Source: Planococcus lenghuensis (GTDB taxonomy: Bacteria > Bacillota > Bacilli > Bacillales_A > Planococcaceae). From it: 64,000 nt of DNA. The DNA is taken from positions 214,501 to 278,500 of the forward strand of contig NZ_CP019640.1 in NCBI RefSeq assembly GCF_001999905.1, written 5' to 3'. Position numbers and translations under genes: made by a program. The notes beneath the pieces are model-generated. The model was not told where the DNA came from. It made no database searches and saw only the letters and a program-made list of their open reading frames with translations. Each line of letters starts with the position of its first letter. Position 1 is the first letter of the stretch. Positions 34,479-53,823 of this stretch are shown in pieces.

Positions 34479-34777
34479 GAACTAAGATAACAAATTCTTA
34501 TTGAAACATGTTGTTCACCCCGAATATGGGGAATAATTTCCTTTGAAAGTGTGGACTTTCAATGCCGCGGTCATTGTCCACTGGATGTATTCTAACTTAA
34601 GCAACGCAAACCCTGCCTGCTTTTGCGTCCTTGCGGCCCTTTAGCCGCGCCAGTGTGAATAAGTGTCTTCAAAAACATATAGCAGATGCCAGAATTTCAA
34701 CGTTCATCTGTTACCTCAATAAGTTAGAATTATAACACTTGATGCAAAAACATGCAATCGAAAAGGAGCAGGAGGAA
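34479..34777 (+). other. Gene-free, hairpin-rich leader of dsdA
   Basis: No gene is seen. The stretch has several local inverted repeats: ACGCAAA/TTTGCGT near 34603, GCGGC/GCCGC near 34634, GAAAGT/ACTTTC near 34545 and CCCC/GGGG near 34518. It is much richer in hairpins than other gaps here. No known riboswitch consensus fits. It may be a structured leader or a decayed sequence. Confidence 0.3.
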
Positions 34778-36510: not shown

Positions 36511-36532
36511 CTAAGAACCAACTTAATCGCAC

Positions 36533-36606
36533 CGCCTCATATAATCGCAGGGATATGGCCTGCAAGTATCTACCGGTCTGCCGTAAACGGACTGACTATG
36601 AGCAGC
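36533..36606 (+). promoter_or_regulatory. Guanine (purine) riboswitch
   Basis: The aptamer matches the Bacillus subtilis xpt leader closely. CCTCATATAATCGCAGGGAT opens it, ATATGGCCTGCAAGTATCTA spans P2 and the core, and CCGTAAACGGACTGACTATG closes P3. The specificity base is C (GACTATG, not GATTA), so it should sense guanine or hypoxanthine rather than adenine. Hairpins downstream form the terminator, so transcription of xpt-pbuX should stop when guanine is high. Confidence 0.93.
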
Positions 36607-36665
36607 AACGGAACAGGATATCTATGCCTTTTCAGGCATGATTTTTTGTGTTTCCTTTCGACGTT

Positions 36666-49193: not shown

Positions 49194-51008
49194 CTATTGT
49201 CTTTCGATTTCTTCTGTTAAAGTCTCTAGTTCATCGATCAATTCACCGATGTAGGCGATCGTGTCACGTAATGGCTGTTCTGTCGTGATATCGACTCCCG
49301 CCATTTTTGCGAGCTCGACAGGTGTCTTCGTACCGCCGGCTTTCAGGACTTCAAGCCATTCATCAACAGCTGGCTGCCCTTCATTCAATACGCGTTTTGC
49401 CACTTGAGTGGAAATCGTCAATCCGGCTGAATATGTGTATGGATAAAGACCCATGTAATAATGCGGTTGCCGCATCCATGTCAGTTCAGCGCCTTTTGTA
49501 AGTTCCACATCCTCGCCCCAGAATTCTTTCAGGACATCATGCTTCAGTCTGTTCAATGCATCTGCATTGACGCTGTGGCCATCATCGATCCGCTCATACA
49601 CCTTCCGCTGATAGGCAGCTTCCAGTAAATGCGTCACGAAGTTATGGTAATAAGTCCGGGCTACAATGGATGAAATAACCCAGCGCTTGAATTTCGGATC
49701 ACTTGAATTCTCAAGCAAGTGATTGGCCATCAGCATTTCATTCATCGTAGATGGCGCTTCGATGAAATACAGCGACGGGCGCGCATTCAGGATATTCTGT
49801 TCCCGGTTTGCAAAGAAGAAATGACCGGCATGGCCCAGTTCATGCGCCAGTACGAACACTTCATTCATCCGGCCGGTCCAGGAGATGAGGATATACGGAT
49901 GATAACCGTATGGGCTTGAGCAGAAGGCGCCGGTTGACTTGCCTTTGTTCTGCGGGAAGTCGATCCAGCGCTCAGTATAAGAGCGATCGACCATCTGCAA
50001 GTACTCATCACCCATGATTTTCAGCGCATCATGCATGTACTTCTTCGACTCTTCCACTGTAATGGACGGTTCATAGGAAGGATCAAGTGAAATTTTCAGA
50101 TCGGCAAAGGTCATCTTATCGAGTCCATGCGCTTTTTGCAGGAGCTTGGCATATTTTCGCATATGCGGTGCCAGTTCTGTCATGATCAAATCGATCTGAC
50201 GGTTGTAAAGGTCCCGGTCCACTTCCTGATCGAACAGCAGGTAATCAAAGATAGTATCAAAACCGCGGAGGTCGGACGTCGTTTTTTCAGCCTGCAGATG
50301 AGCATCATATGTCTTTGCGGTTGTGTGCTGGTAATCTTCAAGTTTAGCTGAAAAGGCATCGAAAGCAGCCCGGCGGATTTTCGTGTCGCTTTCGCCTTCC
50401 CAGTCGCCTTCAAATGCTATGTAACTGAGCGGGTAGTCCTGTCCGTCCACTGTAAAATCCTCAAACGACATATCGACTAATTTTGTTGTGTTATATAGCT
50501 CGTAAGGTGCGTTGAAGACAGATGAAAATGCAGCGAGGACTGTTTCAGCCTCTGCATGCAACTGATGCGGTTTCCAGCGGATCAATTCCTCGAGATAATG
50601 CGCATGTTCCGCTGACTGCTCTGCGGCCTGCTGCAAACTCTCTTCAGAAAGCTCGAGCAATTCGCTCTGCAGAAATGACAGCCGGCTGCCGATTTGTGCA
50701 CCTGTCGCACCCACTCGGGCGGAACGCAGTTGTGCATTGGTATCCGTCTGGTCAGTTGAAGAAGCTAAGCTTGCGTAAGTCCCGATTGGTACAAGTTGTT
50801 CCCGGATGTTGATGTAGCTGGATAACGCTTTAACCGCTGAAGAGGCATCGGTGATCTTGCCTTTAAATTCGGAAGCGAACGTTTCTGCCTGTTCCTTGAC
50901 AGCTTTTAGGGCTTCATCGAATTGTTCTTCTGTTTCAAATAAATCTTTCAGATTCCATGTTTCTTCCGTTGCGACTTCTGAACGTGGCGGCAATTGCTTA
51001 ACCATCAT
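49194..51008 (-). CDS. pepF: Oligoendopeptidase F
   Basis: The 604-residue cytosolic zinc peptidase (M3B) degrades oligopeptides of about 7-17 residues. The HELGH zinc motif lies in FVLAHELGHAGHFFF, with the third ligand Glu in IEAPSTMNEMLMANHL. It matches YjbG of Bacillus in length. AAGGAGAG precedes two ATGs (51008, 51005). Upstream lie an oppositely oriented SigB promoter and, further out, an S-box on pepF's own strand. Confidence 0.9.
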   Translation of the reverse strand: MMVKQLPPRSEVATEETWNLKDLFETEEQFDEALKAVKEQAETFASEFKGKITDASSAVKALSSYINIREQLVPIGTYASLASSTDQTDTNAQLRSARVGATGAQIGSRLSFLQSELLELSEESLQQAAEQSAEHAHYLEELIRWKPHQLHAEAETVLAAFSSVFNAPYELYNTTKLVDMSFEDFTVDGQDYPLSYIAFEGDWEGESDTKIRRAAFDAFSAKLEDYQHTTAKTYDAHLQAEKTTSDLRGFDTIFDYLLFDQEVDRDLYNRQIDLIMTELAPHMRKYAKLLQKAHGLDKMTFADLKISLDPSYEPSITVEESKKYMHDALKIMGDEYLQMVDRSYTERWIDFPQNKGKSTGAFCSSPYGYHPYILISWTGRMNEVFVLAHELGHAGHFFFANREQNILNARPSLYFIEAPSTMNEMLMANHLLENSSDPKFKRWVISSIVARTYYHNFVTHLLEAAYQRKVYERIDDGHSVNADALNRLKHDVLKEFWGEDVELTKGAELTWMRQPHYYMGLYPYTYSAGLTISTQVAKRVLNEGQPAVDEWLEVLKAGGTKTPVELAKMAGVDITTEQPLRDTIAYIGELIDELETLTEEIERQ

Positions 51009-51111
51009 TAATCTCTCCTTATTGTTTCGGTAATCAAACTAATTGTAAGTATATCGGAATTCACGAAGAATGAAAAATATTATAAAAATTAAGTTTTAGG
51101 TAAAAAATAAG

Positions 51112-51136
51112 GTTTACGCGAAAAAAGACGGGGTAT
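51112..51136 (+). promoter_or_regulatory. SigB-type promoter facing a non-coding stretch
   Basis: GTTTAC (51112-51117), a 13-base spacer, then a perfect GGGTAT (51131-51136). No gene is seen downstream on this strand before the terminator at 51437. Confidence 0.6.
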
Positions 51137-51202
51137 AGTAGGATTACAAGGCGAACTTCGAAAGATGAAATGCACAGCCTTGGCGGAAAATTTGCTTTAT
51201 TG

Positions 51203-51266
51203 ACGAAAGCGAAGTACCAGCAAGTGAAGTACAGAGCAAGCAATGTACAACGCAAGTGAAGTGCAA
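51203..51266. repeat. Four contiguous 16-base tandem repeats
   Basis: Units: ACGAAAGCGAAGTACC, AGCAAGTGAAGTACAG, AGCAAGCAATGTACAA and CGCAAGTGAAGTGCAA. The consensus is roughly RGCAAGYGAAGTACAR. Confidence 0.7.
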
Positions 51267-51412
51267 TGTGTTACGCGTCACGAAGTTTAAGTTTTTTGTG
51301 TAAGTGCAACTGAAGAACAAATTACACGTACTGCAACACCGAGTTATTTTTTGTAGAAAGAAAAGTAAAACAGCAAATTTTCCGTGCATGTCCCGTAAGC
51401 TGGGACAGGAGA

Positions 51413-51437
51413 AGCATGATCCGATTCCGGGTCATGC
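51413..51437 (+). terminator. Intrinsic terminator of the candidate RNA
   Basis: AGCATGATCCG pairs with CGGGTCATGCT (G-T pairs), followed by TTTTC. Confidence 0.65.
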
Positions 51438-51477
51438 TTTTCTGTGTTATATTAGCCGTTTATACCTCAACAGAACG

Positions 51478-51513
51478 TAAAAATGCCTTTCCGCGGAAAG
51501 GGAAAGGCATTCA
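51478..51513 (-). terminator. S-box expression-platform terminator
   Basis: Minus strand AATGCCTTTCC pairs with GGAAAGGCATT, then TTTACG, directly after the aptamer. Confidence 0.75.
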
Positions 51514-51520
51514 TAACGAA

Positions 51521-51638
51521 TCTCCCTTATTTTCCAAAGCCGGTCGCTTTGCAGGATTTAGCACCTTTTCAGCTATTGCTGTATGGTTGCCGGGTTTCAC
51601 AGGGCCAGTCCCTCCACCGCTCTCAATAAGAGTTAGCT
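51521..51638 (-). promoter_or_regulatory. S-box (SAM-I) riboswitch
   Basis: The minus strand reads CTCTTATTGAGAGCGGTGGA, GGGACTGGCCCTGTGAAACC and CGGCAACC, then GGTGCTAAATCCTGC, and closes with AAATAAGGGAGA. These are the P1, P2, kink-turn and core elements of the S-box consensus in order and spacing. Elevated SAM should favour the terminator at 51478-51513. Unusually, no methionine, cysteine or SAM gene lies downstream. The first gene on this strand is pepF, starting about 470 bases beyond the terminator. Confidence 0.9.
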
Positions 51639-51663
51639 ATTAATTTGTAATTGAATGTTAATA

Positions 51664-51692
51664 AGAATAGCATGTCGTTATAAACTGGTCAA
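51664..51692 (-). promoter_or_regulatory. SigA promoter of the S-box transcript
   Basis: Minus strand TTGACC, a 17-base spacer, then TATTCT, about 25 bases before the aptamer. Confidence 0.65.
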
Positions 51693-51716: not shown

Positions 51717-51746
51717 TTGATTTATCTCCAAGTTTCTTAGTATGAT
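51717..51746 (+). promoter_or_regulatory. SigA promoter of the monooxygenase/ATP-grasp operon
   Basis: TTGATT (51717-51722), 18 bases, TATGAT (51741-51746). Its -35 lies 25 bases from that of the divergent S-box promoter. Confidence 0.55.
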
Positions 51747-51792: not shown

Positions 51793-52848
51793 ATGAGATA
51801 CGGATTCTGGATGCCGATTTTTGGCGGATGGCTGCGCAATGTAGAAGATGAAAACATGCCGGCAACGTTTGAGTATGCGAAGGAAATAGCACAATCTGCG
51901 GAAAAATGGGGCTATGATTTGACGCTGATAGCTGAATTAAACTTGAATGATATTAAAGGAACCGAGGCAGACTCTCTCGAAGCTTGGTCCACAGCTGCTG
52001 CAGTAGCAGCGGTAACGGACAAACTCGAAATCATGACTGCTGTCCGGCCTGCTTTCCATAACCCTGCCGTAACCGCAAAGATGGCAGCGAATATCGATCA
52101 CATCTCCGGCGGCCGCTTCACGCTGAATGTCGTTTCCGCATGGTGGGCAGAAGAAGCCCGTCAATATGGCGGTGCGTTTACTGAACACGACGAGCGCTAC
52201 GATCGGACAGACGAATTTTTGGCCATCATGAAAGGCTTGTGGACAGAAGATGAATTTTCTTATAAAGGCACTTATTACGATGTGCAGAATACCCGGCTCG
52301 CACCGAAGCCGGTACAAAAGCCGAATCCTGTTCTTTATGCAGGCGGTGAGAGCCCGCGCGGAAAGAAGTCCATCGTCGAAAACTGTGACGCATACGTAAT
52401 GCATGGCGGCACAGTAGAGGAAATCGAGGCGAAAATCGAAGGAATGAAACAGCTTCGCAGTGAAGCTGGACAAGAACCGCTTCAGGCATTTGGCATGGCA
52501 GCATACGTAATCTGCCGTGATACCGAGGAAGAAGCACTGGAAGAATGGAAACGCATCACGGATGTGAAAGAATCAGCAGGCTACGCCGGCTATCAGGATT
52601 TTGTCAGCAAATCCCAGCTTGAGCAGCAAGTGAAATTGAATGACTACTCGGTATCCAACCGTGGTCTCCGCCCGAACCTGGTAGGTACGCCTGAGCAGAT
52701 CGCTGACCGAATTCTTGCGTATGAAAAAGTGGGACTTGATACACTCCTGCTTCAATTTTCTCCACAACTGGAAGAAATGAAGCGTTTTTCTGAACAGGTT
52801 ATGCCAGTGGTGGAAGAAAAACGAAATGCACAAGAAACCCGTGCGTAA
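51793..52848 (+). CDS. SfnG/SsuD-like LLM flavin monooxygenase
   Basis: The 351-residue reduced-flavin-dependent monooxygenase has the order seen in dimethylsulfone (SfnG) and alkanesulfonate (SsuD) monooxygenases: LRNVEDENMPATFEYAKEIA, GGRFTLNVVSAWW, EHDERYDRTDEFLAIMKGLW, LAPKPVQKPNPVLYAGGESP and NLVGTPEQIADRI. A sulfur substrate is plausible but unproven. No flavin reductase is adjacent. An ATP-grasp gene follows after 21 bases. The S-box lies divergently upstream. Confidence 0.8.
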   Translation: MRYGFWMPIFGGWLRNVEDENMPATFEYAKEIAQSAEKWGYDLTLIAELNLNDIKGTEADSLEAWSTAAAVAAVTDKLEIMTAVRPAFHNPAVTAKMAANIDHISGGRFTLNVVSAWWAEEARQYGGAFTEHDERYDRTDEFLAIMKGLWTEDEFSYKGTYYDVQNTRLAPKPVQKPNPVLYAGGESPRGKKSIVENCDAYVMHGGTVEEIEAKIEGMKQLRSEAGQEPLQAFGMAAYVICRDTEEEALEEWKRITDVKESAGYAGYQDFVSKSQLEQQVKLNDYSVSNRGLRPNLVGTPEQIADRILAYEKVGLDTLLLQFSPQLEEMKRFSEQVMPVVEEKRNAQETRA

Positions 52849-52869: not shown

Positions 52870-53823
52870 ATGACAGAAAAAATATATGTTATACATGAAA
52901 ACGAAGAATGGACAGCTCACTTATTCAAGCGGTTGGATGAACTTGGACTGCCGTATGAAGATTGGTTCACGGATGAGAGCGTTGTCGATTTGACCGAAGC
53001 TCCGCCGGAAGGTGTATTCTACAGCCGCATGAGCGCTTCTTCTCATACGCGAGGCCATCGCTATGCGCCGGAAGTGACCGAAGCGCTACTCGCCTGGCTG
53101 GAACATCACGGGCGTAAAGTCTTTAACGGCAGCCGTGCACTCCGGCTGGAAGTCAGCAAAGTGAATCAGTACATGGCGTTGAACGCGGCTGGCGTTCGGA
53201 CACCGAAAACAATTGCTGCAAATGGCAAAGAACAAGTGCTGGAAGCGGCAAAAAGACTGAACGCGCCTTCTTTCATCACTAAACACAACCGTGCAGGCAA
53301 AGGGCTTGGTGTTCAGCTATTTTACTCGCTTGAGGCACTTGAAGAGTTTGTCGAAGGGCCATCGTTCGGTGATTCAGTGGATGGCATTACGCTGATTCAG
53401 GAGTATATCCAAGCACCCGAACCATACATTACCCGCTGTGAATTTGTTGGCGGTAAATTCGTTTATGCGGTACGGGTCGATACGTCAGAAGGGTTTGAAC
53501 TATGCCCGGCCGATGCCTGCCAGATCGGTGATATTTTCTGCCCGGTAGGGGAAGAAGTCGAAGAAAAGCCGAAATTCCAAGTGATTGAAGGATTCAACGA
53601 TCCGATTATCACTAAGTACGAGGAGTTTCTGCGCCAAAACAATATCTCAGTGGCGGGCATTGAATTCATCCGCGATGAGAACGGTGAAATCTTCACTTAT
53701 GACGTTAACACGAACACAAATTATAATGCAGAAGCTGAAGCGAAAGCCGGCAAATTCGGCATGCTTGAACTGGCAAAATTCCTGGGCGAGCAACTGAAAA
53801 CACCGGCAGGAGCAGTGAAATAA
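52870..53823 (+). CDS. ATP-grasp ligase, RimK-like
   Basis: The 317-residue protein has the ATP-grasp core: the N-domain start SKVNQYMALNAAGVRTPKT, the nucleotide loop ITKHNRAGKGLGVQLF, and the metal-binding end AGIEFIRDENGEIFTYDVNT followed by NTNYN. Enzymes of this group ligate an amino acid or peptide carboxylate to an amine, as RimK or LysX do. The substrate is unknown. Co-transcription with an SfnG-like monooxygenase is notable. Confidence 0.8.
   Translation: MTEKIYVIHENEEWTAHLFKRLDELGLPYEDWFTDESVVDLTEAPPEGVFYSRMSASSHTRGHRYAPEVTEALLAWLEHHGRKVFNGSRALRLEVSKVNQYMALNAAGVRTPKTIAANGKEQVLEAAKRLNAPSFITKHNRAGKGLGVQLFYSLEALEEFVEGPSFGDSVDGITLIQEYIQAPEPYITRCEFVGGKFVYAVRVDTSEGFELCPADACQIGDIFCPVGEEVEEKPKFQVIEGFNDPIITKYEEFLRQNNISVAGIEFIRDENGEIFTYDVNTNTNYNAEAEAKAGKFGMLELAKFLGEQLKTPAGAVK

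Follow-up and report, generated by a model that had tools for sequence, protein, structure and literature searches.

A complete S-box riboswitch unit on the minus strand of the window (the whole 64,000-nucleotide stretch of Planococcus lenghuensis DNA analyzed here) has no gene behind it, and the sister species I. explosivorum lacks it at this position while keeping both flanks. We consider it rather likely that this S-box is an orphan regulatory module, the target gene of which was lost or never present. The unit and its surroundings comprise the following features.

51664-51692, minus strand: SigA-type promoter driving the S-box unit, TTGACC-17-TATTCT, with a TG before the -10 (consensus scan)
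51524-51632, minus strand: complete SAM-I (S-box) aptamer (RF00162 and a family-specific model)
51495-51535, minus strand: predicted antiterminator, in which GGAAAATAAGGGA pairs with TCCCTTTCC (folding)
51479-51511, minus strand: intrinsic terminator of the S-box (stem and T run, folding)
51009-51478, minus strand: gene-free stretch beyond the S-box; it is collinear with I. explosivorum and antisense to the RNA at 51146-51443
49194-51008, minus strand: pepF, oligoendopeptidase F, first gene past the S-box on its strand (TIGR00181, 619.9 bits, over the cut-off)
51112-51136, plus strand: sigma-B-type promoter of the facing RNA, GTTTAC-N13-GGGTAT (motif)
51146-51443, plus strand: structured, conserved RNA that faces the S-box and carries a terminator of its own at 51408-51443 (homologues, folding, covariation)
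51717-51746, plus strand: promoter serving the divergent LLM gene, TTGATT-18-TATGAT (consensus match, conserved in I. explosivorum)
51793-52848, plus strand: LLM (luciferase-like) flavin monooxygenase, the divergent neighbor (profile match)
52870-53823, plus strand: RimK-like ATP-grasp protein, encoded next to the LLM gene in a conserved pair (conserved neighbor)

The S-box is confirmed as a clear member of the SAM-I family (RF00162), real, complete, and far beyond chance. In a scan of the 64-kb window, the aptamer at 51632-51524 matches the family at 88.4 bits (E 1.2e-19) over its full length (model positions 1-108 of 108), exceeding the gathering score of 44.4, and it reaches 92.5 bits with a family-specific model. 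Two other RNAs are found elsewhere in the window, a purine riboswitch (36517-36618, plus strand, 74.6 bits) and a BsrC sRNA (34591-34678, plus strand, 68.5 bits).

The whole S-box transcription unit, from promoter through aptamer to terminator, spans about 215 bp. Its promoter, like the others described here, is a consensus match from a scan that returned three sites in the 1-kb region against 2.1 expected; this is weak alone, but the position of the S-box promoter fits. The terminator consists of an 11-bp perfect stem (51511-51501 with 51492-51482) followed by a T run, and a 48-nt piece containing it has a predicted fold of -18.6 kcal/mol (z -5.4). The predicted antiterminator, which pairs AAGGGA:UCCCUU plus GGAA:UUCC, lies behind P1 and shares one strand with the terminator, making the two mutually exclusive; its energy is -12.7 kcal/mol versus -17.3 kcal/mol for the terminator hairpin, all folding energies being predicted without ligand. 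The RF00162 match, the consensus scan, and the folding thus bear out a sequence-only reading of this DNA, which had described a complete aptamer, terminator, and SigA promoter on the minus strand.

The same reading had noted about 470 gene-free bases and then pepF, and this also stands. No sulfur, methionine, or SAM gene lies in the roughly 470 bases 3' of the S-box on its own strand, and no credible gene occupies the minus strand from 51478 to the start of pepF (51008), where the open reading frames of at least 40 amino acids run antisense to the conserved RNA. The larger of these, an 81-residue frame at 51389-51144, was rejected as a gene on that ground and has no Pfam match. The window S-box therefore resembles SAM-I leaders (RF00162) in having an aptamer, a predicted antiterminator, and a terminator, and differs from them in having no methionine, cysteine, or SAM gene on its own strand. 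A gene 3' of the S-box is the usual context and lies outside the covariance model, such that its absence leaves family membership intact.

The LLM-pepF site of I. explosivorum has the same gene order (ATP-grasp protein, LLM monooxygenase, facing RNA, pepF), and the LLM promoter and the facing-RNA terminator align between the two species. The S-box module is missing there, with a gap that extends from just before the -35 to just after the terminator; none of the eight S-boxes of the I. explosivorum genome lies at this site. With one genome per species compared, gain here and loss in I. explosivorum fit alike. A 17-nt look-alike of an S-box deletion scar in I. explosivorum was not significant by shuffles (0.13 and 0.35), and no direct repeats flank the S-box module as an insertion footprint, just two terminator stems showing up.

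As to the origin of the S-box, its nearest aptamers belong to four genomes (G204, G222, G226, and G242) of a different Planococcaceae genus, where the S-box precedes an MFS transporter and both lie beside a MetE-like gene. Identity to the window S-box is 80-86% across the aptamer and 70-75% once the terminator is included, and the terminators are similar. All remaining S-boxes compared reach at most 81% over the aptamer; those of LLM type reach 75% at most, and those preceding MFS transporters in a second genus (L216-L221) are farther away, at 66-69%. A tree based on about 110 sites groups the four MFS-type S-boxes with the window S-box (support 0.78), which is at most suggestive of a relationship between them. 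The likeness ends behind the terminator: a transporter follows the MFS-type S-boxes, whereas the genome carrying the window S-box has no such transporter, and no close remnant of one was found in it. A recent copy from another S-box of the same genome was considered and rejected, as the next DNA match is just 81% over 82 bases. A search for a plasmid or phage origin returned just ordinary S-boxes, about 75-81% identical, of which the top match precedes a methionine ABC transporter. MFS transporters under S-box control were seen in L050, L052, L053, L054, and L216-L221, with a MetE-like methionine synthase gene adjoining in the L050-L054 group; the S-box-preceded MFS transporter is a candidate methionine-related permease.

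The source genome (4.15 Mb, Indiicoccus group) contains 18 S-boxes, 16 of which directly precede a gene; metK, metI/metC-type, methionine transporter, methylthioribose, and sulfonate-type genes are among these targets, with names assigned by eye from the translations. The two exceptions are the S-box at 51632-51524 of the window and one at C1:1731328 (L002, G000:C1:1731328-1731433, plus strand), which is intact and scores second best of the 18 (97.3 bits). Behind the latter come the opening codons of a DszA/NtaA-type monooxygenase, an early stop, and a further fragment, as read by eye. An intact S-box thus stands before a dead DszA-type gene, and intactness is no proof of a living target. Tandem pairs of complete S-boxes, each with a terminator-like hairpin, were also observed at two loci, before a substrate-binding protein (L059, 1253-1584) and before a metI-type gene (L062, 1502-1874).

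Three explanations had been offered by the sequence-only reading: loss of the gene, control of pepF through a very long leader, and an antisense transcript to a candidate SigB RNA. Because the nearest S-boxes drive an MFS transporter that is missing here, and because a second S-box of the genome stands before a dead gene, the orphan module is the best of the three. The form of gene loss originally envisaged, a simple deletion between the S-box and pepF, is not supported: a synteny check for a metabolic gene at this position finds none in I. explosivorum, where the stretch from the RNA to pepF is collinear and the S-box module is the extra piece in the window. Counting against an orphan, no trace is left of a lost gene behind the window S-box, and every S-box signal is intact, as it would also be in an element still in use. 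Some riboswitches are known to lie beside pseudogenes or insertions through rearrangement and seem to have been severed from the gene they first served (PMC9943018). The window S-box would likewise be separated from its proper target by rearrangement, but no remnant of an original gene remains at this site.

Control of pepF would require that read-through at low SAM, over about 470 bases, add to pepF transcription. The position is suitable in that no other gene on this strand comes before pepF, a terminator scan found no minus-strand terminator between 51478 and pepF, and the switch looks able to read through by way of its predicted antiterminator. However, pepF is preceded by a promoter of its own (TTTTCA-17-TATACT at 51076-51048, minus strand, a consensus match), the -10 of which (CCGATATACT) is preserved in I. 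explosivorum, and an S-box is present at none of the 15 pepF loci of other genera that were sampled. To our knowledge, PepF is not a known S-box target. Such control is therefore unlikely, and possible in this species alone; if it did operate, methionine starvation would raise a peptidase able to free methionine from peptides. The antisense idea has a precedent in Clostridium acetobutylicum, noted in the sequence-only reading, where an S-box controls ubiG-mccB-mccA via antisense RNA (PMC2940859); two antisense-acting riboswitches are experimental cases and 292 are computed (PMC9943018). The geometry is alike (PMC9943018, PMC2940859): the S-box lies just past the 3' end of the opposing transcription unit and points inward (terminator at 51479 versus an RNA end at about 51443), and read-through at low SAM could cover the whole RNA at 51146-51443, interfere with it, and tie sulfur status to the stress response. 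The facing RNA is moreover real and conserved, with a sigma-B-type promoter before it. The target in C. acetobutylicum is a methionine-to-cysteine operon, in contrast to the non-coding RNA of the window, and the pairing of S-box and RNA is specific to one species. The RNA occurs in 120 genomes of the family, adjoining pepF in the Planococcus genomes inspected, and no S-box adjoins it in I. explosivorum or the Planococcus loci scanned. Genus names for the relatives are probable where they were set by matching coordinates, as for Planococcus and Sporosarcina. We regard interference of this kind as quite improbable, and it is very unlikely that the S-box is a SAM-gated antisense regulator through which methionine shortage silences or destabilizes a general-stress RNA. 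We know of no functional link between the facing RNA and SAM. Were the antisense reading true, the S-box would be a riboswitch peculiar to this species and acting on another non-coding RNA. On the sequences compared, neither pepF control nor antisense control has comparative support.

The divergent side of the S-box presents a further possibility. The absence of a sulfur gene, as first reported, holds for the S-box strand but overlooked the LLM gene at 51793 on the plus strand, the best NCBIfam models of which are of sulfur type, SfnG and SsuD (alkanesulfonate monooxygenase). Both scores fall below the cut-offs, and hence no exact function can be given to the LLM protein. The pair formed by the LLM monooxygenase and the RimK-like ATP-grasp gene is conserved across Bacilli, and a sense S-box lies 61-271 bp upstream of the LLM gene in 48 of 80 loci of relatives (L099-L178, Bacilli). 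The window S-box occupies the same intergenic place as these sense S-boxes, yet points away from the LLM gene, and it could on this basis be an ancestral sense leader of the LLM operon that was inverted in this species. Against this, no S-box precedes the LLM gene in the Planococcus loci or in I. explosivorum, the sister carries the LLM promoter without change, and the aptamer is closer to the MFS type (0.80-0.86) than to any LLM type (0.75 at most), leaving inversion highly unlikely. In three loci of Oceanobacillus and Ornithinibacillus (L144, L150, and L152), a second, divergent S-box lies before an ssuE-like gene, with the LLM operon on the other side. Finally, the terminated RNA of about 180 nt might pair with distant mRNAs, by analogy with SreA of Listeria monocytogenes, which acts in trans and in cis (PMC8079631). 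As with SreA/SreB, terminated RNA from the window S-box would be predicted to accumulate at high SAM. SreA is the one precedent for such a role, however, and it also controls its own downstream operon, whereas the window S-box has no cis target; a trans-acting sRNA is accordingly the least probable of the functions considered.

We therefore favor the orphan module, for which the following history may be proposed. The window S-box would descend from, or be a copy of, the S-box that places an MFS transporter under SAM control in some other Planococcaceae, and the transporter would have been lost or never have come along. At high SAM, transcription of the unit would stop at the terminator and leave an RNA of about 180 nt, whereas read-through at low SAM would produce an antisense transcript across the facing RNA and, because no minus-strand terminator intervenes, perhaps into pepF. 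Any effect of this read-through is probably incidental.

The facing RNA is of more interest than the S-box and deserves attention of its own. The candidate SigB RNA of the sequence-only reading is well founded: homologues are present in 120 of 261 Planococcaceae genomes and span five genera, often with two copies and sometimes as tandem pairs. A sigma-B-type motif, judged by the sigma-B promoter consensus of Bacillus, stands upstream of 30 of the 33 copies inspected, at a distance of 8-9 nt from first bases that the copies share. Family members are 250-500 nt long (L051, L234-L261, and L268-L278 are among the homologues), the Indiicoccus versions being shortened. They share the nearly invariant stretch GCACAGCCTTGGCGGAAAATTTGCT and the invariant stretches TTTTTTGT and AGTGCA; the two long-range stems show little variation, and covariation is seen in the terminator stem. 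The core pattern (at most two mismatches) matched once outside Planococcaceae in a set of 399 genomes of the class. No match to Rfam 15 was found on this stretch up to E 5, and a literature search on sigB-dependent small RNA of Planococcus returned no published identity. The facing RNA probably represents an undescribed RNA family.

For the neighboring operon, the sense S-box before the LLM/ATP-grasp genes in Bacilli is a clue to a sulfur role. As an orphan, the window S-box would illustrate how a riboswitch can be parted from its gene or survive it, and would caution against taking an intact aptamer as proof of a live regulatory link.
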